DNA from: an uncultured Bacteroidota bacterium
Lineage (GTDB): Bacteria > Bacteroidota > Bacteroidia > Chitinophagales > Saprospiraceae
Reading direction: 5' to 3'
NCBI GenBank assembly: GCA_937861115.1
Contig: CALMBD010000037.1
Span: forward strand, 1 to 43,353
DNA length: 43,353 nucleotides
How positions within the stretch are numbered: the stretch's first letter is position 1; each line of letters opens with the position of its first letter. Of this stretch, positions 47 to 43,353 are shown piece after piece. The notes below the pieces were generated by a model. The model had not been told where the DNA came from. It searched no databases and was given only the letters and a program-made list of their open reading frames with translations. A program made the translations under genes and the position numbers.

Positions 47-192
47 GATTTGCGAGCATCAATTTGATGTTGAAAATTTAAAGATTAAAACATTTAAAAA
101 TTGTAAAAGTTTCTGACGTGAAAGGGAAGGGTGCATCACGAGTTGCATAGCGCTTTGTTCATCCATATGAAATTTGAGTAACGATCTTGCCA

Positions 193-264
193 AGTGGTGG
201 CACACGGGTAATAACTGCCGGTTTTCCTCAGAAAACCGGCAGTTATTACCCGTGTGCCACCACT
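193..264. repeat. perfect 34-bp inverted repeat, 4-nt loop
   Basis: Bases 193-226 and 231-264 are exact reverse complements (34 of 34), separated by the loop CTCA (227-230). The left arm starts AGTGGTGGCACACGGG and the right arm ends GTGTGCCACCACT. The element lies between two divergent genes, so it is not an ordinary terminator between convergent genes, and no T-run follows either arm. It could be a small mobile or REP-like element, or a structured leader or cruciform site. No obvious target-site duplication flanks it. Confidence 0.9.
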
Positions 265-354
265 AAGCCTTATCTCCCCTGCAATAGTATTTGGAAAACA
301 GATCATGTTTATGACTTATGATACCCCGCTTAAAATATTAAATTTTTACACACC

Positions 355-400
355 TACGACAATTGTCGTAAATAAATTTGGAGATACGACAACTGTCGTA
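355..400. promoter_or_regulatory. pair of BlaI/MecI-type operator palindromes
   Basis: TACGACAATTGTCGTA at 355-370 is a perfect 16-bp palindrome. TACGACAACTGTCGTA at 385-400 matches it except for one of the two central bases. The copies start 30 bp apart, close to three helical turns, so two repressor dimers could bind the same DNA face. The motif has the TAC...GTA outer symmetry known for BlaI/MecI/CopY operators. It lies directly upstream of a gene of that repressor family, so autoregulation of the repressor-peptidase operon is inferred. Confidence 0.85.
373..380 (+). promoter_or_regulatory. -7 promoter box of the repressor-peptidase operon
   Basis: TAAATTTG is an exact match to the Bacteroidota -7 consensus TAnnTTTG. 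It sits between the two operator palindromes, so bound repressor would cover the promoter on both sides. No clear -33 TTTG is seen at the usual 19-bp distance. The predicted transcript start, near 386, falls in the second operator. Confidence 0.65.
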
Positions 401-444
401 GATATTTGTGCCATCAACGTATAAACAGGTTAGCAATTAAACCG

Positions 445-831
445 ATGGCAAAGAAACCGACATACCAGCCCACGGAGGCCGAACTCGAAATCCTCAAAGT
501 CATTTGGGAAAATGAGCCGGTTTCTGTCCGCGCCATACACGAACAGATATCTGCGGATAAAAACGTGGGTTACACCACTGTTTTGAAGCAGATACAGCGC
601 CTCACGGAAAAAGGCGTGCTCGATAAGGAGATCGTCGACGGGACGCACCTCTACCGGGCAGCCGTTGGCGAAACCGATGTAAAACAACAGTTGGTCGACA
701 AGGTGCTCCACGCCGCATTCGACGGCTCGGCATTGCAGATGATGATGCATGCCCTGGGTAACCAAAAGGCTACAGCCGAGGAACTTCAGGAACTCAAGAA
801 CTGGCTCGATAACCAAATTTCAAAAAAATGA
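445..831 (+). CDS. BlaI/MecI/CopY-family transcriptional repressor
   Basis: This 128-residue protein starts at ATG 445; an upstream TTG at 406 lies within the promoter region and is less likely. The N-terminal winged helix is clear: TEAELEILKVIWENEPVSVR followed by GYTTVLKQIQRLTEKGVL. The C-terminal half is the helical dimerisation arm usual for this roughly 120-residue family. The stop overlaps the start of the M56 peptidase gene (ATGA at 828-831), the classic repressor-sensor arrangement of blaI-blaR1. In that system the peptidase triggers loss of the repressor after a signal. The twin palindromes at 355-400 are its probable binding sites. The inducing signal is unknown; no beta-lactamase gene is nearby. 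Confidence 0.92.
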   Translation: MAKKPTYQPTEAELEILKVIWENEPVSVRAIHEQISADKNVGYTTVLKQIQRLTEKGVLDKEIVDGTHLYRAAVGETDVKQQLVDKVLHAAFDGSALQMMMHALGNQKATAEELQELKNWLDNQISKK

Positions 832-2639
832 TGCTGCCCGATTCTTTCTCACTGTTCAGTCAGGCGCTCGGCTGGGCGATCGTTCACTCGCTCTGGCAAG
901 TTACCCTGATCTGGCTCCTGTTCAAAGCCGTCACCTGGCGCCTGGAAGGCCATAATAACGCGGTTTACCTGCTTTCGCTGGCGGCAATGGCTGCCGGTAC
1001 GATTTGGATGGCCGCAACTTTCAACACCGAATACGAGCGCGTGCTGCAGCAGAACACCGTTGTGCAAGAGTCGGCTGCGCAGGTACAGAACAATACCACC
1101 GGTCTGCAAATAACCACCGGGCAGGCAGTTGTGCCGTCAAAACTGCAGTTCGTACAAACTGCGCAACTATGGCTCGAAGGCCATGCCCAACAGATCGGGT
1201 GGCTTTGGTTTCTGTGTGCCACCGTATTGTGGCTGCGACTGCTGGGTGGCTACTGGCTTGCCCGGCGCCTCCGGCATTGCGATACTTCCCCGGCCGATAC
1301 AAACATTCAAAATATCTGCGACGCGTGGGCCGAACGGCTGGGCATCGGGCAAAAAGTCACCCTAAAGGAATCGAAGCGCATCGCGGAACCCCTGACCATC
1401 GGCTTTTGGAAGCCGGTCATTCTCTTTCCCGTCGGCTTGTTTGCGGGGCTGACACCATCACAAACAGAGGCACTGTTGCTGCACGAACTGGCGCATATTC
1501 GCCGCTACGACTATCTGGTCAACCTGTTTCAACTGGGTCTCGAGGTCGTGTTCTTCTACCACCCCTTGTTCTGGCTGCTTTCGCGGGAAGCGCGCTCCCG
1601 CCGTGAGTTTTGCTGCGACGACGTGGTATTGCAGTACACTGCCGATCCATTGCTGTATGCCCGCACGCTCACCGACCTGCAATTATCATTCATTCACGCA
1701 CAAAACCAGTTTACCATGAATGCCACCGGAAAAAGTAATTTCACAGAAAGAATACTGCGCATCGCAGGTATAACGCCAAACAGATCAATGCGCTCCAACT
1801 GGGTAATGCTCCTGTTGTTGCCCCTCCTTGTCGGATTGAGTTCATGGTGGCCCGCCGCACATGCAAAGGCAGACACCGGCACATCCCGGTCCGTTGTTTC
1901 CGACGACAACAGGGCTGCCTCCGACCTCATCCGTACAGATTCGGTATCACCCAGACGAAACCGCCCGGAAAGCAGCGTCACCGTTCCGGCCGCCCCGGGC
2001 CCTGTCACCCCGGCGACCTCGGGTGTCGAGCCGCCCGCTGCCACGTCGGGACTGGTCGCCGTTCAGGCTGAAAAGATGAACGTGTTGTACATCGGTGTGG
2101 AAAACCCTGTCTGCATTGGCGCCGACGGAGTCCCTGTAGAAGACCTTTCACTGCGTTTGGTGGGCAATGGTACGGTTAAGGGAGGTATGGGTAAATACTC
2201 CATCAGCGTAACAACGCCCGGCGAAGTGACCATCCAGGTCTATCGCAGCCTTAACGGCAAGGAAAGCCTGTTCAATGAGGTGAAGTACAGGGTAAAGCGT
2301 ATCCCCGACCCGACGCCTTATATGGCCGGTAAAAAAAGCCAGGCTATCACCAAAGAAGTGTTGCTCCAGGCTACAGGTGTCGACGCCATACTGGAAAACT
2401 TCGATTTCGATGCCTACTGCGAGGTTATGGGGTATGAGGTGACCGTTGTGCCGGCAAAAGGCGATCCGGTATCTTATAATGTGACCGGCAGCCAGTTTTC
2501 CGATGCGGTACGGAACCTGTTCGGACAAGTAGAAAATGGCAGCGGCATTTACATCGATGAGATCAGGGTAAAATGCCCGGGTGATGCTGCAGCCCGTCAT
2601 ATTGGCGGGATCGCATTCAAGATCAAGGCTGCGGAGTAA
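828..2639 (+). CDS. M56 (BlaR1/MecR1-type) membrane peptidase with GldM-like C-terminal region
   Basis: The protein has 603 residues. Hydrophobic segments near 13-37, 45-65 and 122-147, together with the zinc-protease segment, form the M56 membrane domain. The zinc motif HELAH is at 219-223 and the downstream ligand Glu260 lies in REFCCDD. A further membrane segment follows near 325-345 (VMLLLLPLLVGLSSWW). After a Pro/Ala/Ser-rich linker (about 350-415), residues from 417 (MNVLYIGVENPV) to the end resemble the last two domains of GldM, the periplasmic shaft of the gliding/type IX machinery, including the later AGKKSQAI segment. BlaR1 normally carries a penicillin-binding domain there. The peptidase probably cleaves the co-transcribed repressor after sensing something with its periplasmic part. 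Confidence 0.85.
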   Translation: MMLPDSFSLFSQALGWAIVHSLWQVTLIWLLFKAVTWRLEGHNNAVYLLSLAAMAAGTIWMAATFNTEYERVLQQNTVVQESAAQVQNNTTGLQITTGQAVVPSKLQFVQTAQLWLEGHAQQIGWLWFLCATVLWLRLLGGYWLARRLRHCDTSPADTNIQNICDAWAERLGIGQKVTLKESKRIAEPLTIGFWKPVILFPVGLFAGLTPSQTEALLLHELAHIRRYDYLVNLFQLGLEVVFFYHPLFWLLSREARSRREFCCDDVVLQYTADPLLYARTLTDLQLSFIHAQNQFTMNATGKSNFTERILRIAGITPNRSMRSNWVMLLLLPLLVGLSSWWPAAHAKADTGTSRSVVSDDNRAASDLIRTDSVSPRRNRPESSVTVPAAPGPVTPATSGVEPPAATSGLVAVQAEKMNVLYIGVENPVCIGADGVPVEDLSLRLVGNGTVKGGMGKYSISVTTPGEVTIQVYRSLNGKESLFNEVKYRVKRIPDPTPYMAGKKSQAITKEVLLQATGVDAILENFDFDAYCEVMGYEVTVVPAKGDPVSYNVTGSQFSDAVRNLFGQVENGSGIYIDEIRVKCPGDAAARHIGGIAFKIKAAE

Positions 2640-2655
2640 CGCCCCTTACGTTTCT

Positions 2656-3675
2656 TCAGGTTAGTTGGCCAAGGTATCTTTTTAACAGTGCCCGATAGGT
2701 TTGCGCCGTTTCCTCCAACGCCGTCGACCGGTGTTGCGCTGATTCCAGCAGCGCAACCTTCAGGCGCACATTGGCCCGGTACGCTTTAAAATACAGGAAC
2801 AACAACGCATCTTCCGGACCCTCGATGCAGGGCCACTCACGCAGGTAAGTCGTCATAAACGCTTCGGCGAGTTCGTGGTGACCGCCGGCGTCGAGATCCA
2901 TGCACAAAAAAGCCAGTTCATTCAGGATATCTCCCTGCCGGAAGTGTTCGCTGAACTCGATACAATCGAACGCCAGCGGGCCTTCCGGCAGGAGAAATAT
3001 GTTGCGGGCGTGCAGGTCGCCGTGCCCGTCTACCCAAAATCCCGCCTGTGCGCGTTGTTGCATCCGTTCGCGGTGTTTATCCAGAAAGGTACCGACCTGT
3101 TGTTGCCAGGCGTCGAATTGCGCTCCGGCGCTTTCACCCAAAAGCCGTTCCGCTGCTTTTTTCAGCGTGAACAAATCGTTGAAATCGTCGCGGTTGCTCG
3201 CGGTAGTGTCTGACACTGCATTTCCCGGCAAGACAACCGAAAGGTGGAATCGAACGAGCATTTTTGCCAGCGCCTCGATATCTTCGGTGGTCACGCCGTT
3301 CCGGCGCAGCAGTTTGTCCATCTGGCGTTCATTGTCCATCCGTTTCATGACGACGGCAAAGTCGACCGCTGTTTCCCCGTTGGCGGCAGGGCGTATTTCA
3401 GGTTGCCCGTCTTTTGTCAGGCATACCGGCAAGACATCCAGGTACATATCAGGCGCCAGCCGGCGATTGAGTCGCAGTTCTTCACCGCAATAAAACGCCC
3501 GTTTTTCCAGCGTGCTGAAGTCCAGAAAAGCCAATTGAAGGGGTTTTTTGATTTTAAAAGCGAAGGCCGGCGTCAGGATCACCCAGGAGATATGTGTTTC
3601 GATCAGGGTTGCCCGGGCCTTGGGCCCGGGGAATCTGTTCCCCGTGATGATCGATTGTATTTGGTCGGCGGTCAT
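2656..3675 (-). CDS. APH-fold kinase of the COG2187 type
   Basis: This protein has 339 residues from ATG 3675; a TTG three codons upstream is also open. It shows a choline/aminoglycoside-kinase fold: an N-terminal lobe with AFKIKKP as the likely ATP-binding lysine strand, the catalytic loop GHGDLHARN (His218, Asp220, Asn225), and the metal-binding aspartate in AFDCIEFSEHFR. The DCIEF form is typical of the COG2187 group. In many bacteria that domain is fused to a P-loop kinase in one protein of about 500 residues. Here the P-loop part is a separate gene (4181-4678) in the same direction, with a broken gene between them. The substrate is unknown. The 3' end is convergent with the M56 gene, 16 bases away. 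Confidence 0.85.
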   Translation of the reverse strand: MTADQIQSIITGNRFPGPKARATLIETHISWVILTPAFAFKIKKPLQLAFLDFSTLEKRAFYCGEELRLNRRLAPDMYLDVLPVCLTKDGQPEIRPAANGETAVDFAVVMKRMDNERQMDKLLRRNGVTTEDIEALAKMLVRFHLSVVLPGNAVSDTTASNRDDFNDLFTLKKAAERLLGESAGAQFDAWQQQVGTFLDKHRERMQQRAQAGFWVDGHGDLHARNIFLLPEGPLAFDCIEFSEHFRQGDILNELAFLCMDLDAGGHHELAEAFMTTYLREWPCIEGPEDALLFLYFKAYRANVRLKVALLESAQHRSTALEETAQTYRALLKRYLGQLT

Positions 3676-4982: not shown

Positions 4983-5624
4983 ATGCAAACAACAAAAAAT
5001 ATCGCCCTGCCAAGAATACTGCACTACCTGTTTCTGAGCCTGACGTGCTTTGGGGCCATATGGTGGCTGCTCAACCTTTCGGCCTATTTCAAGACCGGTG
5101 ATGAGGGGCCGGCTATCCGTGGCTGGGTAACCACAGTAGGGGATTATCAACACACGGTGGTCCCGCATCCGGACGGCAGCGGTGATCTGAAAATGTACAA
5201 CTGGGGTGAACGGAAGTTTGTCATGCTTGAGTTCTCCGAAATGCAGGGCATACTGAAGTGGCGTTACCTGGGCTATATTTTGCTGGAGAACCTGAAATAC
5301 ATACTGGTCGTTTTCGGCCTGTATCAGATGTACCGCATATTTCGGAACCTCGACCGGAACCTGATGTTCCGCGATGAGAACATCCGGCGTATCCGGCTGA
5401 TCGCCGTAGCGGTGATGATCTTCCCGATAGCAAGCCAGGTGGCCTCGCGCATCATTGCCGGGGTGACTTACGAGGCAGAGGGACATCTGATCAAAACTGC
5501 CATACCACCGCTCCTGTCCGAGCAACTGGTGCTGGGAGGACTGCTGGCCCTCATACTGTTCGCGCTGGCTGAAGTTTTCCGCAACGGAGCCATCCTTCAA
5601 CAAGAACAAGACCTAACCATCTGA
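4983..5624 (+). CDS. DUF2975-family membrane protein
   Basis: A 213-residue integral membrane protein with four hydrophobic segments: about 10-32, 97-117, 137-158 and 177-200. A hydrophilic loop, probably extracytoplasmic, lies between the first two. This layout, and above all the small XRE regulator four bases downstream, is the standard DUF2975-plus-Cro/C1 (YozG-like) pair found in many bacteria. The cytoplasmic loop near 118-135 (YRIFRNLDRNLMFRDENIRRIR) has the spacing usual for the family. The function of the pair is not established; a membrane sensor or modulator of the regulator is a reasonable guess. Confidence 0.85.
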   Translation: MQTTKNIALPRILHYLFLSLTCFGAIWWLLNLSAYFKTGDEGPAIRGWVTTVGDYQHTVVPHPDGSGDLKMYNWGERKFVMLEFSEMQGILKWRYLGYILLENLKYILVVFGLYQMYRIFRNLDRNLMFRDENIRRIRLIAVAVMIFPIASQVASRIIAGVTYEAEGHLIKTAIPPLLSEQLVLGGLLALILFALAEVFRNGAILQQEQDLTI

Positions 5625-35768: not shown

Positions 35769-36296
35769 TCAACTCGGCAGGCGCTCCCGGAAATAACCGT
35801 ACACCCACGTGCCGGCGATAGCGCTCAACAGGGTAACGATGATCACCGAGGCGCCGGTCCCGATCTGGGCGAACAACGGCCCCGGACACGCGCCTGTCAT
35901 CGCCCAGCCCAGTCCGAAAATCAAACCGCCGATCACATTGCCCTTATTGAAGGTTTTAGGTTGAAAATCAATGGTTTCTCCGTATATCGTCTTGATCCGG
36001 AACCGCTTGATGAGCCATACCGATATCATGCCGACGACAACCGCCGTCCCGATAATGCCGTACATATGGAACGACTGCAGGCGGAACATCTCCTGGATGC
36101 GAAACCACGAAATAACCTCGGCTTTTACCAGCACGAATCCGAAAAGTATACCGGCAGCGGCATATTTCAGGTTGAACCACCAGGGTTGTTCCAATTCGGA
36201 ATCGTTGATACAGATGGCGTCCAGTGAGCGAACCTCAAAGTCCGTATTTTTTTCCACGACCTCTGCCGGGGCCGGTATTTGATATGTTTTTTCCAT
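35769..36296 (-). CDS. YeeE/YedE-type thiosulfate/sulfur transporter, second half
   Basis: The protein has 175 residues. About 40 cytosolic residues (EKNTDFEVRSLDAICINDSE) precede four membrane helices. The conserved Cys loop GLGWAMTGACPGPLFAQIG (about residues 132-150) is the signature of YeeE/YedE (TsuA-like) proteins, which bring thiosulfate or related sulfur into the cell. In the single-chain protein two such halves are fused; here this half pairs with the GGCTSGH-containing half at 36358. The two genes are 61 bases apart in the same direction and probably form one transporter. It is the last gene of the sulfur group. Confidence 0.88.
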   Translation of the reverse strand: MEKTYQIPAPAEVVEKNTDFEVRSLDAICINDSELEQPWWFNLKYAAAGILFGFVLVKAEVISWFRIQEMFRLQSFHMYGIIGTAVVVGMISVWLIKRFRIKTIYGETIDFQPKTFNKGNVIGGLIFGLGWAMTGACPGPLFAQIGTGASVIIVTLLSAIAGTWVYGYFRERLPS

Positions 36297-36357
36297 TATT
36301 GTAATGACTTGAAAGTAAAAGGTAAATCAGGCATATCCCCTTGTCGTTGCCTGCTGC

Positions 36358-36921
36358 TTACAGGGCGAGGATATAGGGCAGGATCAAATTGGCCATGATA
36401 AATCCGCCTGCCATGAAAGACATGGTGGCGATGAGCGATGGCAACTGAAGGTTGGACAATCCCATGATGGCGTGCCCGGAGGTGCAACCGCCCGCATACC
36501 GGGTGCCGAAGCCAACCAGAAAACCGCCCAATACCATCAATACCAACCCGCGGGCGGTGGCCAGGTCTGCCCAGTTGAACAGGTCGGCTGGTACCAGTCC
36601 GTCGTAATGCGTGATGCCGTATCCCGACAGTTCAGAGGCCAGTTGAGGGGCTACCTGTACCGGTTCCGGGCTGGCAAACCAGGTGCCGGCAATGAGCGCT
36701 CCGACAAAAATGCCGCCCACGAAAAATAGATTCCAGACCTCCCGTTTCCAGTTGTATTTGAAAAATTTGATGTTGGCAGGAATGCAGGCCGCACACACGT
36801 GGCGCAGACTGGATGAAATACCGAAGTGTTTGTTCCCGAGGATCAAAAGCAGGGGAACGGTAAGCCCGATGAACACCCCGGCAACATACCAGGGCCAGGG
36901 CTGGCTGATCATTTCAAGCAT
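36358..36921 (-). CDS. YeeE/YedE-type thiosulfate/sulfur transporter, first half
   Basis: The 187-residue protein has five or six hydrophobic helices. The conserved segment [18 protein letters not shown] (about residues 130-147) carries the cysteine that lines the pore in YeeE/TsuA-type transporters. It is about half the size of the single-chain family and the complement of the next gene, which has the other cysteine motif (GACPG). Split YeeE/YedE pairs are common in Bacteroidota and are often linked to rhodaneses and MBL-fold enzymes, as here. Confidence 0.9.
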
Positions 36922-36966: not shown

Positions 36967-37341
36967 TTACCATTCGCCGATGCCGCCCGTGAGGTTGCGC
37001 ACGTCGAAGCCCGCCTTGTGCATGATTTTGCAGGCTTGTCCGCTTCGGTTGCCGCTACGGCAAAAAACGAAGTAGGTTTTGGATTTGTCCATCTGCGCGA
37101 TATTGCGCTGGAATGCCGGCGACATGATGTCCAGGTTGACGGCGCCGCGGATGGTGCCCGATTTGAATTCTGCCGAAGTGCGTACGTCCAGCAGGACTGC
37201 ACCCGGTGTGGATTCAAATTCCTTGCGGAACTGACGTCCGGACAGGTGTTCAAAACGCGGCCCGTTGCCGCCGGAAGGGGTGTTTTCAGCAGATTCCGTT
37301 TCACTGCTGAAGATATTTTTTAAAAAAGAGGTAAGTGCCAT
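36967..37341 (-). CDS. single-domain rhodanese (sulfurtransferase)
   Basis: The protein has 124 residues from ATG 37341 (MALTSFLKNIF); the longer frame upstream is not conserved-looking. It is one rhodanese domain: FRKEFESTPGAVLLDVRTSA, then GAVNLDIMSPAF, and the active-site loop FCRSGNRSGQA with the persulfide-forming cysteine. The loop CRSGNR is typical of thiosulfate- or polysulfide-binding single-domain rhodaneses of the GlpE/PspE kind. It lies between the MBL-rhodanese enzyme and the transporter halves, so it likely passes sulfane sulfur between them in the cytoplasm. Confidence 0.92.
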   Translation of the reverse strand: MALTSFLKNIFSSETESAENTPSGGNGPRFEHLSGRQFRKEFESTPGAVLLDVRTSAEFKSGTIRGAVNLDIMSPAFQRNIAQMDKSKTYFVFCRSGNRSGQACKIMHKAGFDVRNLTGGIGEW

Positions 37342-37442
37342 GATAGGTGTTGGTTGGGGATGAAAGGTATTTTCATCCCGGTTGATGTAGAAAAAAAATC
37401 GTCGGTAATGCACTGTCCTTACGAGACACCCGCTCAGGTGTA

Positions 37443-38861
37443 TTATTTTAGCGTTGTCGGGCAGACGTAATCCGTTACCTCGAACTTGCCACTATCCTTG
37501 ATCGCTTTAAAGCCGCCTTTGATTTCTACCAGGTTGTCGTAGCCGCGTGCGCGCAGCACCGAAGTGAAAATCATGGAACGGTACCCGCCTGCACAGTGCA
37601 CGAAAGCCTGTTCATCCTTGGGTATGGCCAGCATGGATTCGTTGATGAAATCCAGTGGCGTATTTACCGCGTTGGCAATGTGCTCGGATGCGTATTCGCT
37701 GTTCTTTCGTACGTCGAACACCTTGGCTTTCGGGTTTTTTTGTACGATGGAAGCCAGTTCGTTGGCGTCGATTGACTGGATGGTATCTACCTCCATGCCT
37801 GCATTTTTCCAGGCTTCGAAACCACCGGCGAGGTAGCCCAGGCAATTATCATAACCCACGCGGGCAAGTCGGGTCACTACTTCCGCTTCGCGGCCGGGAT
37901 CGGCAACGATCAACAGTTCCTGCTTTACGTCGGGGATCAGTGCGCCCACCCAAGGGGCAAAACTGCCGTCGATACCGATGTTGATCGAGTTGGGCACAAA
38001 CCCTCTGGCGAAGGTCTGGGCCTCACGGGTGTCGAGCACCAGGGCGCCGGTTTCATTGGCTGCCACCTCGAACTCACGGGGAGGCAGGGCGTGTGTGCCG
38101 CGTTTCAACACGTCATCGATGCTGTCGTAGCCTTCCTTGTTGAGGGCAACGTTCAGGGGGAAATATGCGGGCGGCGGCAGCAGACCGGTCGTCACTTCTT
38201 TTACAAACTCCGCCTTGGTCATGTTGGCGCGCAGGGCGTAGTTGGTCTGTTTCTGGTGGCCGAGGGTGTCAAAAGTTTCTTTCGACATGTTCTTGCCGCA
38301 TGCGGAACCTGCTCCGTGCGCGGGGTATACGATCACATCGTCGGGCAGTACCATGACTTTGTTGCGCAGCGAGTCGAAAAGCGTTTCGGCAAGTTGTTCC
38401 TGGGTCATGTGCGCCGCTTTCTGGGCCAGATCGGGTCGACCCACATCGCCGATGAACAGGGTGTCGCCGGAAAACAGGGCGTACGGCTTGTCATTTTCGT
38501 CGATCAGCAGGTAGCAGGTGCTCTCCATGGTATGACCCGGCGTATGCAGCACGCGGAAAGTCAGTTTGCCAACCTTGAATTCTTCTCCGTCTTTGGCGAT
38601 ATGCGCTTCGAAGGAGGGGTTTGCGTTCGGACCGTACACGATCGGTGCGCCGGTTTTTTTACTCAGGTCCAGGTGCCCGCTCACAAAATCGGCATGGAAG
38701 TGCGTCTCGAAAACATATTTGATCCTGGCGCCGCTTTTGCCGGCGCGCTCGAGATATGGCGATACCTCGCGCAGCGGATCGATGACGACTGCTTCACCTT
38801 CACTTTCGATATAGTATGCTCCCTGTGCCAGGCAGCCGGTATAGATTTGTTCGACTTTCAT
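37443..38861 (-). CDS. MBL-fold persulfide dioxygenase-like enzyme fused to two rhodanese domains
   Basis: The protein has 472 residues from ATG 38861 (MKVEQIYTG). The N-terminal metallo-beta-lactamase domain has the metal motif HFHADFVSGH (His54, His56, Asp58, His63), HTPGHTMES, and FSGDTLFIGDVGRPDL, as in ETHE1/CstB-type persulfide dioxygenases. Two rhodanese domains follow. The first (about 270-360) lacks the catalytic cysteine, its loop reading LLIVADPGRE. The second (about 370-465) has FVHCAGGYRSM with the cysteine present. The CstB-type plan suggests oxidation of glutathione or protein persulfides to sulfite plus sulfur transfer. A Crp/Fnr-type box lies 69 bases upstream. Confidence 0.92.
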   Translation of the reverse strand: MKVEQIYTGCLAQGAYYIESEGEAVVIDPLREVSPYLERAGKSGARIKYVFETHFHADFVSGHLDLSKKTGAPIVYGPNANPSFEAHIAKDGEEFKVGKLTFRVLHTPGHTMESTCYLLIDENDKPYALFSGDTLFIGDVGRPDLAQKAAHMTQEQLAETLFDSLRNKVMVLPDDVIVYPAHGAGSACGKNMSKETFDTLGHQKQTNYALRANMTKAEFVKEVTTGLLPPPAYFPLNVALNKEGYDSIDDVLKRGTHALPPREFEVAANETGALVLDTREAQTFARGFVPNSINIGIDGSFAPWVGALIPDVKQELLIVADPGREAEVVTRLARVGYDNCLGYLAGGFEAWKNAGMEVDTIQSIDANELASIVQKNPKAKVFDVRKNSEYASEHIANAVNTPLDFINESMLAIPKDEQAFVHCAGGYRSMIFTSVLRARGYDNLVEIKGGFKAIKDSGKFEVTDYVCPTTLK

Positions 38862-38898: not shown

Positions 38899-38906
38899 CA
38901 AAGGTC
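38899..38906 (-). promoter_or_regulatory. candidate -7 box of the MBL-rhodanese operon
   Basis: On the minus strand this reads GACCTTTG, TAnnTTTG with one mismatch. It is 34 bp centre to centre from the palindrome at 38930-38943. No -33 TTTG exists at the usual place. Predicted leader about 32 bases. Confidence 0.55.
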
Positions 38907-38929
38907 GGGACAAGCACCCTTCCGGCACG

Positions 38930-38943
38930 GTGACAAGTGTTAC
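38930..38943 (-). promoter_or_regulatory. Crp/Fnr-type binding site (site A)
   Basis: On the minus strand it reads GTAACACTTGTCAC, an inverted repeat with 4-base centre and one mismatch. It sits upstream of the MBL-rhodanese gene and matches sites B (39814-39827) and C (41935-41948). Centred about 42 bp before the predicted transcript start, it fits a class II activator site. Confidence 0.7.
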
Positions 38944-38955
38944 AAAGAAAATATA

Positions 38956-39753
38956 TTATTGGAAAAAAATCTCCTTGGCAATGATATAAACGCCCATCAC
39001 CAGCACAAACCAGCCGAATGCCGGTTTCAGTTTCTCGCCGCTGATGCGCTTGGCAAGCGCCGAGCCGACAAAAATACCGGCGACGGCAAAGGATGAAAAG
39101 ATCGCCAGAAAGCCCCACTCGATCTCCTGATGGCCTATGTCGCCCAAAAAGCCCAGCAGCGACTTGGCGGCAATGATGAGCAGCGAGGTGCCGACTGCTT
39201 CTTTCATGGGCAGCCCCGCGAGCAGCACAAGAGCCGGAATGATCAGGAAGCCACCGCCGGCGCCCACCAGCCCGGTGAGGAGTCCCACTACGATGCCTTC
39301 CGCAAAGATCAACGGGTAGTTATATTTCTTTTCCCGGGATTTACCCTCGTCGCCGTTGCGTTTGTCGCGAATCATGGAAATCGACGCCGCCACCATCAGC
39401 ACGGCAAACAACAGCATGATGAATAAGTTTTTCCCCACCTCAAAAGAACCGAGGTGGAACACCGGGTCGGGTATGGCGGGTACCAGGAATTTTCGGGTGG
39501 CATAAACGGTGATGATGCTCGGTATGCCAAAGATCAACGCTGTTTTGTAGTCCAGCAGGCCTTTTCTGCCGTAATTGACAGAGCCCACCAGGGCGGTCAG
39601 TCCGACGATAAACAAAGAGTATGCTGTGGAGAGAACAGGACTGACGCCCATGACGTAAACGAGTACCGGTACGGTAAGAATTGAACCTCCCCCACCAATC
39701 AATCCGAGCGAAACGCCGATTATCACAGACAGGAGGTAGCCTAGAATTTCCAT
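38956..39753 (-). CDS. TauE/SafE-family sulfite/anion exporter
   Basis: The protein has 265 residues with about eight hydrophobic segments and an internal repeat: LGLIGGGGSILTVPVLVYV near residues 17-35 and GLVGAGGGFLIIPALVLLAG near 155-175. These Gly-rich helices are the signature of TauE/SafE. Members next to persulfide-oxidation genes (as in the cst operons) are thought to export sulfite or other sulfur oxyanions made by the dioxygenase. A central polar loop (about 115-140, with DKRNGDEGKSREKK) joins the halves. It has its own Crp/Fnr-type site upstream (39814-39827). Confidence 0.93.
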   Translation of the reverse strand: MEILGYLLSVIIGVSLGLIGGGGSILTVPVLVYVMGVSPVLSTAYSLFIVGLTALVGSVNYGRKGLLDYKTALIFGIPSIITVYATRKFLVPAIPDPVFHLGSFEVGKNLFIMLLFAVLMVAASISMIRDKRNGDEGKSREKKYNYPLIFAEGIVVGLLTGLVGAGGGFLIIPALVLLAGLPMKEAVGTSLLIIAAKSLLGFLGDIGHQEIEWGFLAIFSSFAVAGIFVGSALAKRISGEKLKPAFGWFVLVMGVYIIAKEIFFQ

Positions 39754-39782
39754 TTATTTTGTTGTTTCAGTTAAATTAAGGG

Positions 39783-39790
39783 CAAAGGTG
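39783..39790 (-). promoter_or_regulatory. candidate -7 box of the TauE/SafE gene
   Basis: On the minus strand this reads CACCTTTG, TAnnTTTG with one mismatch, 34 bp centre to centre from the palindrome at 39814-39827. There is no -33 element. Predicted leader about 24 bases before the start at 39753. Confidence 0.55.
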
Positions 39791-39813
39791 CACCCTTCCC
39801 GGACCGGCAGTCT

Positions 39814-39827
39814 GTAACACATGCTAC
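39814..39827 (-). promoter_or_regulatory. Crp/Fnr-type binding site (site B)
   Basis: The plus-strand sequence is GTAACACATGCTAC, an inverted repeat with one mismatch; flanked T and A extend it to TGTAAC...GCTACA. It is placed identically to site A relative to its -7 box. Confidence 0.72.
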
Positions 39828-39868
39828 ACAAGGCGAAAATATATTTCCCCAAACGTTCATGTCCTTCT

Positions 39869-40465
39869 TCAAACCAATTCAATCTTTCCGCGGCCCAGCC
39901 TGACCGCGCCTTCGCGTTCGAGTTTTTTCAGCACCCTGGAAATGGCTTCACGCGGACTGCCGATCTCGCCGGCGATTTCCTGGTGCGTTACCGTGAGGGT
40001 ACGTGTACCGAAAAGGCGCGCTTTTTCTTCCAGAAGATCCATGATCCGGTCGTCCAGTTTCTTGAAATTGACGTTTGTCACGGCTTGCAGCAACTCCTCA
40101 AAACGCGCCTGGTAAAGCCGGAAAATGTATTCAGCCCATCCGGGATGCTCCCTGATCAGTGCCGCCGCCCGTTCCGGACGGATGAACATGATCTCCGTCT
40201 CATCGACGGTAACGGCCTTGATTTTTGAAGAAGTACCGTTCATGGCGCCCAGAATCGACATCACGCAACTGTCGCCGGGCTTCAGGTAGTACAGCAGGAT
40301 TTCGTTGCCTTCATCGTCTTCGCCCACCACTTTTACATGGCCGCGCACGACAACGGGTATATTGCGAATATAGTGGTGAAAATCAACCAGCACCTGCCCC
40401 GGAGGCAGCACCTTGGTTTCGTTTTCTGCAGCAAGTCGGCGCAACAGAGCGTTTTCTCCTGTCAT
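39869..40465 (-). CDS. Crp/Fnr-family transcription regulator
   Basis: The protein has 198 residues from ATG 40465 (MTGENALLRRLAAENE). The N-terminal cyclic-nucleotide-like barrel has VLPPGQVLVDFHH and EGNEILLYYLKPGDSCVMS. A dimerisation helix (RLYQARFEELLQAVTNVNF) and a winged HTH (TVTHQEIAGEIGSPREAISR) follow. In the recognition helix PREAISR has the Glu-x-x-Ser-Arg order found in FNR-type DNA readers. Only one cysteine is present, so an FNR-type [4Fe-4S] sensor is unlikely; the signal could be a thiol or persulfide at that cysteine, or a small ligand. It is four bases downstream of the porin gene, sharing its site-C promoter, and likely activates the three sulfur transcripts. Confidence 0.9.
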   Translation of the reverse strand: MTGENALLRRLAAENETKVLPPGQVLVDFHHYIRNIPVVVRGHVKVVGEDDEGNEILLYYLKPGDSCVMSILGAMNGTSSKIKAVTVDETEIMFIRPERAAALIREHPGWAEYIFRLYQARFEELLQAVTNVNFKKLDDRIMDLLEEKARLFGTRTLTVTHQEIAGEIGSPREAISRVLKKLEREGAVRLGRGKIELV

Positions 40466-40469
40466 AGGT

Positions 40470-41885
40470 CTAAAACCGATAGTTAAATACAAGGTTGTAG
40501 TTGATCATGTCTACCTTGTTGATGCGGTAACGCTCGTTGTTGTACAGGTCTCCGGCATTCTTTTTCCAGGCGATCAATACCTGGCTTTCCAAACCTTCCA
40601 GCCGGCCGCCGAACCTGTACTTCAGGTCCATGTTCAACTGATTGTACGAAGGTAATCCATATTTGTTGAGCCGGTAGTTTTTTACATCGGGCAGGCGATA
40701 GTGTCCCATCCCGATCTGTCCCGAAAATGGACTGTTATGCGGGCGCCAACTGAGTTGTCCGGAAAAAGCCCATACATCGCCCAGCCCCTCGTTCCGTTCC
40801 CTTGGCAGGAAGGTGAAAAGCGGGTCGCGGCCCCATTCGCGCGGAAACAGAAACCGCCCGTCGGCTGTGATGCGCGTCGTGTTCAATTGAAAGCGGACCG
40901 CTTCTTGTGACCATGCCGCATAACTGCTGAATACCCAACTTTTGGACCCCGGCGCCACATAGGTTTTTGATGGATCGGTGTTGCCGCCTGATGCTACGGC
41001 GTCCTGGCGTATGGCCATCAGGCCGGCATGCAGGGCCGACGCGCCGGCGGCCCGGGTCAGCCCGAATGACTTTTCCCATTGAAAAAATGCGGTGTGGAGT
41101 ACGTTCTCTATGTAGTAGTCCCAAAAGGCCATCTTCCCAAGCACCGGAGTGGTGTAGCCCAGGTTGACTACGAACAACCCGGCGCTGCCGATATTGCCGT
41201 GATAATCGCTTTTCAGGCCCTGCTCGGTCAGGCCTTGCGGATAGATACCCATACTTTCCGCCGTTCCCAGCCACTGGCTGGTCGATCGCGGTGCGGCATT
41301 CCACAGCCAGCCGCCTTCGAGGTGGATCTTTCCGGAAGGTTCGAAATAGCCGTACAGACCGTCGAACATGGAAGGGTTCATCCTGCCGTCCTGCGGGTTG
41401 GCGAGCGGCGTTTTCAGGATTTGTTTGCCGAGGATCAGCCTGTTGCGTTTCCATCGGTACTGGAGATGCAGTTCCTCAAGCCGGGGCAGAAACCCCTTGT
41501 TGTCGAGTTCGCGCAACTCGTACAACCCGGCGTCGTATCGGTCCAGTGCACCGGTGACCGGATCGGGCCGGGTGAAATCGCTTGAAGCGATATCTTTCAC
41601 AAAACCGCCGCCCATGACCATCTGCAAGCCCTTCCAGGGCCTGGTTTCATACCGCATGGATGCCCCGGCCGCCACGGCAAAATAATCCGTCAGCCCAGGC
41701 GCATTGTCGGTGAACATGTTGAACTGCCGGATATTTCCGCTCAGTTTCCCATCCCTGAATATCCGCTGAAGTGAAAAACTGTCTGTTTCGGAAGGCGTGT
41801 TTCGGGGTTGTGCAAGTAGTCCCTGAGGGACCGTTAAAAGCAAGGAAATAGTGAAAAAAAGACTGATTTTATCGATCACGCGCAT
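40470..41885 (-). CDS. OprD-like outer-membrane porin
   Basis: The 471-residue precursor has a signal peptide (FFTISLLLTVPQGLLAQ). The mature part begins IFRDGKLSGNIRQFNMFTDN, typical of OprD-family porins, and consists of many amphipathic beta strands ending INYNLVFNYRF, a barrel-closing C-terminal strand with terminal Phe. RNRLILGKQILKTPLANPQD is a strand-loop element also seen in OprD proteins. Such porins admit specific small anions or organic acids. In this setting the likely cargo is thiosulfate or another sulfur compound, which is an inference from the neighbours. It is followed four bases later by the Crp/Fnr gene and preceded by site C. Confidence 0.82.
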   Translation of the reverse strand: MRVIDKISLFFTISLLLTVPQGLLAQPRNTPSETDSFSLQRIFRDGKLSGNIRQFNMFTDNAPGLTDYFAVAAGASMRYETRPWKGLQMVMGGGFVKDIASSDFTRPDPVTGALDRYDAGLYELRELDNKGFLPRLEELHLQYRWKRNRLILGKQILKTPLANPQDGRMNPSMFDGLYGYFEPSGKIHLEGGWLWNAAPRSTSQWLGTAESMGIYPQGLTEQGLKSDYHGNIGSAGLFVVNLGYTTPVLGKMAFWDYYIENVLHTAFFQWEKSFGLTRAAGASALHAGLMAIRQDAVASGGNTDPSKTYVAPGSKSWVFSSYAAWSQEAVRFQLNTTRITADGRFLFPREWGRDPLFTFLPRERNEGLGDVWAFSGQLSWRPHNSPFSGQIGMGHYRLPDVKNYRLNKYGLPSYNQLNMDLKYRFGGRLEGLESQVLIAWKKNAGDLYNNERYRINKVDMINYNLVFNYRF

Positions 41886-41904
41886 TGTTTGAGTTGTTTC
41901 GCCG

Positions 41905-41912
41905 CAAAATTG
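41905..41912 (-). promoter_or_regulatory. candidate -7 box of the porin-regulator operon
   Basis: On the minus strand this reads CAATTTTG, one mismatch to TAnnTTTG, and lies 33 bp centre to centre from the palindrome at 41935-41948. No -33 element is present. Leader about 14 bases. Confidence 0.5.
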
Positions 41913-41934
41913 AGGGAAACTTTCGGAGGGGATG

Positions 41935-41948
41935 GTAACGCTTGTTAC
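41935..41948 (-). promoter_or_regulatory. Crp/Fnr-type binding site (site C)
   Basis: GTAACGCTTGTTAC is a perfect 5-bp inverted repeat with a 4-base centre, upstream of the porin-regulator operon. It is the best of the three sites and implies that the regulator controls its own gene. Confidence 0.72.
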
Positions 41949-41967: not shown

Positions 41968-43353
41968 TTACCTGAAAGTATACGGCACGCCGCTAACCTG
42001 GGTCAGGAGGGTTTGCGGGGCGTCGAGCACTTTGGCATAGCCATGTGGAACAGGCGTCACCGGTGAATTGGCGGCAAGGTAATCGCGCATGACCTGGTGC
42101 AGGGTAAAGGCGGTATTTTTCCCGTCTATCACATTGGGTATCCGGCAAAGCATATCGACCGGATCGCCTTCGCGCTCGCAGGCGCAAATGGAATAAATGC
42201 GGTCCGGTTGGAGCGGCTGTCCGCCTATCGTCACCTTTTTGAGTCGCTCCCCCTGCTCACCAAAGGCGTTGAACTCGATCTCCATCCCTTTGAACTTGAC
42301 CACCCAGCCTCCGAAGCGCTTGGAAGCGTCTTTGGCAAACACATTGTTCAACTCTTTTTCCAGCCAGTCGTACAGTTGCTTTCCGCTCGCTTTGGCGGTG
42401 CGCACCGTGGAGTCGACCGGCAGCATATCGAAGATATAGCCTTCCGTGATGGCGACCCTTCCGTCGGGTCCGAGGTTGCGCGGCGGGCAGAACCTGAACC
42501 CGTTGGACAGCACGATCTCGGTGCCGATTCGCCACCATAAGGCATCCAGTATGAGGGTGTCCATCGTATTTTCCACGACGAAATAGCGGTACAGCGGAAC
42601 GGTGCTGTACCCGTGCACCTTGTTGATGGCATCGGTAAACGGCGCTTCAATCTGGTCGATCAGTTGTTGTACCTCGGGTTGCGGCGTATAGGCGTCGGCA
42701 TCCACCTCAAGCAGTTCATACCGCTCACCCGTGATCTTGCCGTCGGTTATCTCCAGGTCGAGGCGGCCGACAAAAGAACCGAATGCGCCGGGCTCCACCA
42801 CCTTGGCGTACTGACATATGATCGGCTCGCGTACGCGTTCATGCGTGTCGCCGCCGAAAATGTAGTCCACGCCTTCGCAGGCGGGCTGGTTGGCGAGGTG
42901 TATCTGCTGCGAGAGCCCGAGGTGGGCGAGTATGATGATAAAGTCGCACTGTTCCTGTTCGCGCAGCACCTGTACCCAGGGCGCCAGACTTTCTTCCGGT
43001 TTGGTGTAAATAATGCCTTTGGAGTAATTCGGCGACTGCCGTTTTGGTACCAGGTGGTCGGTCATGCCGATAAAACCGATTTTTACGCCGAGCCGCGACC
43101 ATGTGTAGTAGGGCGGGAAGATCAGATCGCCGCGCTGGCCGTCTCCAAGATCGTGGTACATATTAGCGCATACCTTTGGCGCATGGAGCGCACCGAGCAG
43201 GGTCTGCATTGCTTTTTTGTAGTAGACCACCTCCCAGTTGCCGGGCAGATAAAGGTCGTAACTCAAGGCGTTCAGGATAGGTACTATAGCCTTTCCTGTT
43301 GTTTTTACCGACAGTTCGCTGCCCTGAAACATATCGCCGGTGTCGACGATAAA
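41968..43353 (-). CDS. SoxB-like 5'-nucleotidase-family hydrolase, 5' end outside the window
   Basis: The visible 461 codons read from the right edge to the stop at 41968. The N-terminal metallophosphatase part shows IVDTGDMFQGSELSVKT, then LYLPGNWEVVYYKK, IIILAHLGLSQQ and YIFGGDTHERVREP. The C-terminal 5'-nucleotidase domain follows (VLSNGFRFCP, TEGYIFDMLPVDSTV). Ordinary 5'-nucleotidases have GNHEFD, while SoxB, the sulfate-thiol hydrolase of the Sox thiosulfate-oxidation system, has a Trp there (GHWEF). GNWEV here is the SoxB-like form. Together with the sulfur genes downstream, SoxB-type function is the best reading, but a plain nucleotidase/phosphatase cannot be excluded. No soxAX/YZ/CD genes are in view. 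Confidence 0.75.
   Translation of the reverse strand, partial: FIVDTGDMFQGSELSVKTTGKAIVPILNALSYDLYLPGNWEVVYYKKAMQTLLGALHAPKVCANMYHDLGDGQRGDLIFPPYYTWSRLGVKIGFIGMTDHLVPKRQSPNYSKGIIYTKPEESLAPWVQVLREQEQCDFIIILAHLGLSQQIHLANQPACEGVDYIFGGDTHERVREPIICQYAKVVEPGAFGSFVGRLDLEITDGKITGERYELLEVDADAYTPQPEVQQLIDQIEAPFTDAINKVHGYSTVPLYRYFVVENTMDTLILDALWWRIGTEIVLSNGFRFCPPRNLGPDGRVAITEGYIFDMLPVDSTVRTAKASGKQLYDWLEKELNNVFAKDASKRFGGWVVKFKGMEIEFNAFGEQGERLKKVTIGGQPLQPDRIYSICACEREGDPVDMLCRIPNVIDGKNTAFTLHQVMRDYLAANSPVTPVPHGYAKVLDAPQTLLTQVSGVPYTFR

Follow-up and report, generated by a model that had tools for sequence, protein, structure and literature searches.

In Escherichia coli, CRP and FNR exert class II activation from a site centred near -41.5, and sulfane sulfur is the signal of regulators such as SqrR, BigR, CstR and FisR. 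None of the titles and abstract openings found in a search of the open-access literature names a Crp/Fnr regulator of sulfide, persulfide or thiosulfate genes. NtcA binds GTAN8TAC, also near -41.5, according to the available part of PMC3898017, and the HcpR2 motif predicted for Bacteroides and others is given as GTAACnnnnGTTAC in the corresponding part of PMC1274295 (Rodionov 2005). Here, we describe a sulfur gene cluster with its own Crp/Fnr-family gene in the window, a 43,353-nucleotide stretch (contig CALMBD010000037.1) from an uncultured Bacteroidota bacterium of the Saprospiraceae. Palindromic boxes stand there at one distance from promoter boxes, an arrangement that recurs in many related bacteria, and the palindromes are very probably landing sites for the neighbouring Crp/Fnr-type protein. 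Judged from sequence, we put at roughly 0.85 the probability that this regulator uses the three sites A, B and C as class II operators.

The gene cluster and its three sites

The features considered are listed in Table 1. The SoxB-like ORF lies near the contig end and is probably cut. No Pfam or NCBIfam match was found for the porin-like ORF, a 40% homologue of which is present at locus L002. The regulator gene starts 4 nt past the end of this ORF, and the two are therefore probably on one transcript. The rhodanese gene and the two YeeE/DUF6691-type genes are, from their adjacency, probably part of the MBL-rhodanese transcript. The MBL-rhodanese protein scores 61.6 bits against NF040641 (Blh), far under the cut-off of 625.

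Table 1. Features of the cluster, with distances (bp) from operator centre to -7 box centre
Feature	Coordinates	Strand	Remarks
SoxB-like ORF	41968..43332	minus	TIGR04486 200 bits, below cut-off 550; match from profile position 145
Operator C GTAACAAGCGTTAC	41935..41948	minus	between soxB-like gene and porin-like ORF
-7-type box, promoter C CAATTTTG	41905..41912	minus	centre distance 33
Porin-like ORF	40470..41885	minus	CDS start 41885; name from the preliminary description; first gene of probable porin-regulator transcript
Crp/Fnr-family regulator, 198 aa	39869..40465	minus	Pfam HTH_Crp_2, Crp, cNMP_binding
Operator B GTAGCATGTGTTAC	39814..39827	minus	between regulator and tauE
-7-type box, promoter B CACCTTTG	39783..39790	minus	centre distance 34
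TauE/SafE-family exporter	38956..39753	minus	PF01925 E 4e-46; CDS start 39753
Operator A GTAACACTTGTCAC	38930..38943	minus	before MBL-rhodanese gene
-7-type box, promoter A GACCTTTG	38899..38906	minus	centre distance 34
MBL-fold + rhodanese protein, persulfide-dioxygenase-like	37443..38861	minus	Pfam Lactamase_B, Rhodanese; CDS start 38861
Rhodanese	36967..37374	minus	Pfam
Two YeeE/DUF6691-type sulfur-transport genes	35769..36921	minus	Pfam Sulf_transp in both, DUF6691 in one

A preliminary description of this DNA had reported three GTAAC-N4-GTTAC boxes at a fixed distance from -7 boxes, at promoters without a -33 element. When measured again, the boxes are where they had been placed and at the same distances from -7-type boxes of the Bacteroidota kind, and inspection by eye finds no TTG at the -33 position of any of the three promoters. 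The motif as originally written is exact only at site C, with sites A and B each one base off, and the -7 boxes of all three promoters lack the first T of the consensus. There are four matches to GTAAC-N4-GTTAC with at most one mismatch in the window, the fourth at 2636-2649; shuffled sequences gave a mean of 0.75, and 1 of 100 shuffles reached four. By itself, this motif count is only mildly unusual.

Conservation of the operator-to-promoter distance

The case for operators rests on spacing rather than on motif count. Genome-wide, the oriented pattern GTRRCN4GTYAC occurs 45 times and the same pattern read backwards 158 times, making the motif rarer, not over-represented. The genome scan for motifs near -7 boxes that had been suggested as a check found TTTG at 33 or 34 bp for 6 of these 45 sites, with one further case at 32, where simple arithmetic, taking the four letters as random, predicts 0.35; without A, B and C, 3 of 42 remain (0.33 expected by the same arithmetic). 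Sulfur-linked genes lie downstream of all six, namely of A, B, C and of three further sites. One of these precedes another MBL-rhodanese gene, one the gene of an AraC-type regulator adjoining an SQR-like gene, and one a gene whose product is homologous to a protein from the sulfur clusters of relatives. The sole Pfam match of the C11 protein is a type IX sorting domain. With the alternative Crp-type pattern TGTRAYN4RTYAC, a box was found for 4 of 25 oriented sites in this genome, all four among those already counted. No clear operator was found ahead of the SQR-like gene (C315) itself; the best candidate by eye, GTAAAGCGCACTAC at distance 32, is a poor match and was rejected.

The preliminary description had tied its claim to the presence of the sites in orthologous clusters. 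Orthologues of the regulator number 55 and form one clade relative to 18 other Crp/Fnr rows (support 100/99), with a warning from the tree program that long branches meet between the orthologue and paralogue sides. G383 (L185, E 1.3e-63) was excluded from this number because it scored with the paralogues, and orthologues without any operator by later patterns stay counted. An operator lies in the 600 nt that follow the regulator gene in 42 of the 55 (window included), and in 40 of these 42 a -7- or -10-type box comes at 33 (33 cases) or 34 bp (7 cases), no other distance having more than 6 cases. By the patterns used, no operator was found in this region for the other 13, two of which (L102, L211) have less than 140 nt there. 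Across 38 regulator loci, 14 site-to-box distances are 33 and 6 are 34, each remaining distance between 11 and 76 occurs at most once, and the reversed sequences of these loci give none at 33 or 34; these are 38 of 46 loci, after removal of near-copies (L007-L012, L016) and of the window itself (L017). The class II geometry proposed initially is thus found again, at its fixed distance, both at other sites of this genome and across orthologues.

The right half-site is degenerate in the 42 operators (GTAGC 10, GTAAC 9, GTCAC 8, GTTAC 8, others 7). Of 31 site-box pairs at 37 loci, a set that takes in window sites A and B, L006 and one reading in reverse, 19 have a -7 box without its first T, and the spacing register is retained where TTTG is lost and a TANNNT box stays. 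Sites with imperfect -7 boxes at L127, L130 and L147, and the site at L014, were recognised by reading the sequences. In 27 of the 42, the stop codon of the regulator gene lies inside the operator (as TG-TAA-C, TG-TGA-C or TG-TAG-C); in a test of single origin, this overlap needs 12 changes on the tree, a number as low as which was obtained in 10 of 500 shuffles. In L001 and L002, mbl is preceded by a site with spacing 34, and the YeeE gene of L002 has its own site. A small ORF of ~70 aa separates the post-regulator operator from tauE in both loci and tauE is therefore not always the first gene.

The regulator and its predicted mode of action

The regulator passes the Pfam cut-offs for PF00027, PF13545 and PF00325, and so combines the cNMP-binding fold and Crp-type HTH of the Crp/Fnr superfamily. 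Foldseek matches to its structure model (mean pLDDT 82.5, pTM 0.56), which was built from a 10-row alignment and bears on the fold alone, are CRP-type structures. From an alignment by eye, we take the recognition residues R172, E173 and R177 to be counterparts of CRP R180, E181 and R185; what we presume to be the places of the CRP ligand residues E72 and R82 do not hold these residues. R172, S176, R177 and the single cysteine, C67, are each present in 55 of 55 orthologues, with residue 173 being E in 18, V in 36 and A in 1, and C67 is the sole cysteine in 41. Cys67 sits just before the short helix found at the position of the phosphate-binding cassette of CRP. It is also present in paralogues, including one near ccoG, and is therefore not specific to sulfur regulators; that the signal might be sensed through this residue is possible but doubtful.

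Given the spacing in the genome (6 of 45) and in the orthologues (40 of 42), class II activation of a sulfur regulon is a well-supported prediction, with activation as the direction of effect suggested by operator position. The -7 box of F. psychrophilum spans -12 to -5, as given in the available part of PMC9723704, and with start sites assigned on this basis a distance of 33 or 34 bp to the -7 centre would place the dyads at about -41.5 or -42.5. A regulator dimer at this position would contact RNA polymerase from upstream, compensating for the absent -33 contact, and in the presence of reduced or reactive sulfur would turn on TauE (sulfite/sulfur export), MBL-rhodanese (persulfide oxidation), YeeE (sulfur transport) and the porin-regulator transcript.

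The preliminary description had the regulator turning on the whole cluster, including itself. This is supported for the MBL and TauE transcripts and, by adjacency, probably extends to the genes for rhodanese and YeeE, ahead of which the window showed no separate site. Self-activation has fared less well: site C and read-through hint weakly at it here, and as a general feature it was rejected, since the 600 nt ahead of the regulator gene contain no operator in any of the 55 orthologues. Up to 6 kb from the regulator, operators with a box number 2 upstream (one being site C) versus 57 downstream; 17 of 48 loci checked have less than 6 kb of upstream sequence, none less than 600 nt. The operator-porin-regulator order of site C was not seen in any relative examined, and at L002 the porin homologue sits elsewhere, with no site found ahead of it by the scan.

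That the boxes are chance palindromes lying near AT-rich promoter words gains some plausibility from the shuffle expectation per window and the lack of genome-wide over-representation, but is contradicted by the spacing statistics and the conserved spacing; although motif count alone would not suffice to reject it, on spacing it is hardly credible. An unlikely alternative, more substantial than chance, is that the boxes serve another Crp/Fnr paralogue, with the cluster answering to oxygen or electron-acceptor status. The paralogue near ccoG (C192) is 42% identical to the regulator and retains C67 and R172, and two loci whose regulators group with the paralogues (L006, L014) have the same geometry ahead of tauE, which means that the regulator cannot be told from geometry alone. 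This assignment is opposed by the position of the operators, which mostly lie no more than 600 nt past the orthologue genes and often contain their stop codons, and by the half-sites: TGTGAT or ATCAC halves occur in 6 of the 7 downstream operators found at 18 paralogue loci, versus 4 TGTGAT and 3 ATCAC in the 42 orthologue operators, and sites with such halves in the present genome never show the -7 spacing.

Repression, with a dimer at -41.5 blocking polymerase until sulfur relieves it, would parallel sulfane-sulfur repressors elsewhere; the literature, to judge from the parts available, describes sHdrR/SoxR (ArsR type), proteins of MarR type and YrkD as repressors. We consider it very improbable here, as the operator sits where activators classically bind and the core promoters seem weak, with the first T commonly missing and A, B and C devoid of a -33 element. 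Activation by the adjoining regulator is the reading we retain.

Comparison with described regulators

Features new here are the stop codon within the operator, the register kept despite loss of TTTG, and the invariant C67. Tentatively, and with somewhat less than even confidence, the single-cysteine subfamily may be an old, phylum-wide Bacteroidota activator of reactive-sulfur disposal. Regulator and operator would then travel as one cassette, since the gene often ends in its own target operator, and the class II register would have been kept while the core promoter switched between -10-like TANNNT and -7 TAnnTTTG. The locus provides a testable candidate activator of sulfide, persulfide and thiosulfate genes in Bacteroidota, and the operator-in-stop-codon arrangement a simple route to inheriting a regulator together with its target site. 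The spacing rule, 33-34 bp between operator and -7 centres, could predict Crp/Fnr regulons in Bacteroidota, where the usual -35/-10 elements are absent.

As in E. coli CRP and FNR, a Crp-type fold with HTH is combined with a dyad at about -41.5/-42.5 from the inferred start; unlike there, the promoters are of the Bacteroidota TAnnTTTG type rather than TATAAT. The regulator was rejected as an E. coli-type, cAMP-dependent CRP (PRK11753, 55.3 bits versus a cut-off of 266) and as an oxygen-sensing 4Fe-4S FNR, which needs four cluster-ligating cysteines where this protein has one. Site C fits the NtcA pattern as available, at the same position, whereas the regulator scores 27.9 bits against the NtcA profile (TIGR03697, cut-off 244.95) and is not assigned to it. 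The HcpR2 motif, in the form available, is identical to site C; HcpR2 itself, as described there, has Pro at the 181 position and hcp targets, whereas here all 55 orthologues have E, V or A at the equivalent residue 173 and sulfur genes adjoin the operators, with no hcp gene noted among those neighbours that were read; on the residue, this identity was likewise rejected. Like the sulfane-sulfur regulators sHdrR/SoxR and those of MarR type, which in the accounts available control sulfide, persulfide or thiosulfate oxidation genes, the present regulator is associated with such functions; those proteins are termed repressors, whereas here a Crp/Fnr protein would act from an activator position.

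Probable operators in the sulfur-related gene cluster

On the minus strand the order is SoxB-like ORF, site C, porin-like ORF, Crp/Fnr regulator, site B, TauE and site A, followed by MBL-rhodanese, rhodanese and two YeeE/DUF6691-type genes, apparently a cluster for reduced-sulfur handling. The regulator begins 4 nt past the porin-like ORF, for which a protein family search returned no match. The SoxB-like ORF matches TIGR04486 with 200 bits (cut-off 550) and, as it is probably cut at the contig end, any operator before it is not visible in the window. The preliminary description placed three GTAAC-N4-GTTAC boxes here; their places are correct, but only site C has the exact motif, A and B having one mismatch each. 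The distances to the -7 box centres (34, 34 and 33 bp) were borne out by measurement.

The exact palindrome occurs at three places in the 5.7-Mb, 348-contig assembly. The motif count is weak evidence, since shuffling yields on average 0.75 matches with at most one mismatch per window, versus four present, and GTRRCN4GTYAC, with 45 oriented matches genome-wide, is rarer than its backward-read control (158). The case for A-C is carried by spacing, not by motif count. Inspection of the flanks of all 45 oriented matches, the scan for the motif near -7 boxes suggested earlier, gave the following: TTTG is present at 33 or 34 in six, with one further site at 32, versus 0.35 expected if the four letters were random (3 of 42 versus 0.33 with A-C excluded). 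As the assembly is 96% complete, sites may be missing from this set. The six are A, B, C and one site each on contigs C64, C315 and C11 of the same genome. For the last two, the sulfur link is by neighbourhood; the SQR-like gene at C315 scores 236 bits with NF049943, under the cut-off of 525, and the C11 secreted protein is 50% identical to its homologue in the Saprospiraceae relative L002. The AraC-type regulator at C315 is a possible second regulatory layer. Four of 25 oriented TGTRAYN4RTYAC sites have the box, all already among the six, and none of those with T or A beside the spacer has one. In the relative L001, a second MBL-rhodanese gene sits between the regulator and a gene that we label peroxiredoxin-like.

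Positions of operators and associated features
Feature	Sequence	Position	Strand	Remark
Site A	window	38930-38943	minus	box GACCTTTG at 34 bp, centre to centre
Site B	window	39814-39827	minus	box CACCTTTG at 34 bp, centre to centre
Site C	window	41935-41948	minus	box CAATTTTG at 33 bp, centre to centre
Fourth GTAACN4GTTAC-like match	window	2636-2649		GTAACGCCCCTTAC
SoxB-like ORF	window	41968-43353	minus	contig end; profile match begins at position 145
Spaced site	C64	6884		before second MBL-rhodanese gene
Spaced site	C315	1028		before AraC-type regulator adjoining type III SQR-like gene
Spaced site	C11	7312		before secreted protein; homologue in relatives' sulfur cluster
Second MBL-rhodanese gene	L001	4357-5769
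Second MBL-rhodanese gene	L094 (C64)	1911-3323
SQR-like gene, then AraC-type regulator	L097 (C315)	65-2396		regulator with own same-spacing operator
Second Crp/Fnr regulator	L095 (C192)	2811-3470		near ccoG
Small hydrophobic ORF	L001	6788-7000		~70 aa
Small hydrophobic ORF	L002	6783-7001		~70 aa
Stop-codon overlap	L001	6594-6607		left half-site; also in 25 more orthologues
Stop-codon overlap	L002	6594-6607		left half-site
Stop-codon overlap	L003 (paralogue)	5055-5068		left half-site

Conservation of the spacing in orthologous loci

L001 and L002, loci of Saprospiraceae MAGs, encode regulators 82% identical to that of the window, and both have a site downstream of the regulator and one before mbl, with spacing 34; L002 has extra sites before soxB (33) and yeeE (34). 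Both also have the small ORF between the post-regulator site and tauE; by eye, it resembles the ORF after the operator in L144, there preceding thioredoxin and OsmC. In 38 of the 46 loci of the first set, site-to-box distances were 33 in 14 cases and 34 in 6, with at most one elsewhere.

A 7-row profile of sulfur-type regulators identified 48 further matches in 395 phylum genomes (E <= 1.3e-73), beyond which the score drops to 1.3e-63; all 48 loci were included and, together with the window, L001, L002 and the four family members L099-L102, make up a set of 55 orthologues. These form one clade versus 18 other Crp/Fnr rows from the same locus set (support 100/99), with a warning from the tree program that long branches meet between the two groups. 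Operators are kept in the orthologous clusters: in 42 of the 55, one lies no more than 600 nt past the regulator gene. In 40 of these, a box of the NAnnTTTG or TANNNT type is positioned at 33 (33 operators) or 34 (7), with other distances occurring at most six times; NAnnTTTG alone occurs 17 times at 33, three times at 34 and once each at 12 and 20. At exactly 33, the remaining two show GAATTTTA (L193) and GACCTTAG (L196). No operator was recognised with these patterns within 600 nt downstream of the regulator in 13 orthologues; L102 and L211 have <140 nt there, and L166, L199 and L201 have an operator with a box 1.1 to 2.6 kb downstream.

In 19 of the 48 phylum loci (17 of family f24, 2 of f43), the regulator has thioredoxin- and OsmC-type genes as near neighbours on its own strand; L188 is a twentieth such locus and also has tauE. 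TANNNT, a loose pattern that TAnnTTTG also fits, follows the operator in all 19, at 22 nt in 17 and 23 nt in two, with full TAnnTTTG in only two (L176 and L205). We read these sequences as possibly retaining the class II register with a promoter that is -10-like or degenerate. TANNNT without TTTG, 22 nt past the operator and with thioredoxin and OsmC genes nearby, is seen in L168, L172, L209 and similar loci.

Among the 42 orthologues with such an operator, 27 have it beginning two bases upstream of the regulator stop codon, so that gene end and half-site coincide, as TG-TAA-C (19), TG-TGA-C (6) or TG-TAG-C (2), a few TGA cases ending in T instead of C. Of 18 paralogue loci examined, seven have a downstream operator and two of these (L003 and L006) the overlap. 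The window lacks it, site B beginning ~40 nt past the stop. The tree requires at least 12 state changes, a number as low being reached in 10 of 500 shuffles, so the overlap has often been lost or gained. Nothing alike is present among the literature matches listed, a thin check.

Proposed activation, self-control and a possible sensor residue

According to PMC9723704, the F. psychrophilum -7 box spans -12 to -5, which would place operator centres near -41.5 (spacing 33) and -42.5 (spacing 34). A, B and C all have a base other than T at the first position of the -7 box, as do 19 of 31 site-box pairs drawn from 37 loci, a set that includes A and B of the window, L006 and, once, the same site read in reverse. 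By eye, there is no TTG in the -33 zone of A-C, consistent with the absence of a -33 element noted previously. Weak core promoters combined with an operator in the class II position would point to activation. The class II geometry originally proposed agrees with the 33/34 spacing kept in the genome and in the orthologues, and the arrangement is real and conserved and, to judge from sequence, most likely marks a class II Crp/Fnr sulfur regulon.

The proposal that the regulator also turns on itself is weakly supported: all 55 orthologues lack an operator in the 600 nt before the regulator gene, and self-activation in the window would require transcription from site C to continue through the porin-like ORF into the regulator. 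Within up to 6 kb, two operators with a box are upstream (one is site C) versus 57 downstream, a count in which upstream sequence is <6 kb in 17 of 48 phylum loci and <600 nt in none, and whose pattern an L002 site 5.5 kb upstream escaped.

C67 is invariant in all 55 orthologues and the sole cysteine in 41. The structure model predicts it just before helix 68-76 (mean pLDDT 82.5, pTM 0.56), which we take, from alignment by eye with CRP, to be the place of the phosphate-binding cassette of CRP. As C67 is also present in paralogues, a sulfur-specific role is a guess. The same genome encodes a second, 42% identical regulator (contig C192) near ccoG, which probably belongs to a cbb3-oxidase cluster.

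Relation to known Crp/Fnr systems

Among the literature matches listed, none describes a Crp/Fnr protein controlling sulfide, persulfide or thiosulfate genes in Bacteroidota, and the literature open to search gave no account of this regulon, of the -7 spacing rule or of an operator overlapping the stop codon. The available portion of PMC8510549 interprets Crp/Fnr homologues of three MAGs, one of them from Saprospiraceae, as likely MalR and mentions no sulfur regulon for them; PMC13370916 deals with HcpR together with an RNA in Bacteroides. The HcpR2 motif given in PMC1274295 is identical in sequence to site C, so the box itself is a known Crp/Fnr motif, and the promoter logic is of a known kind.
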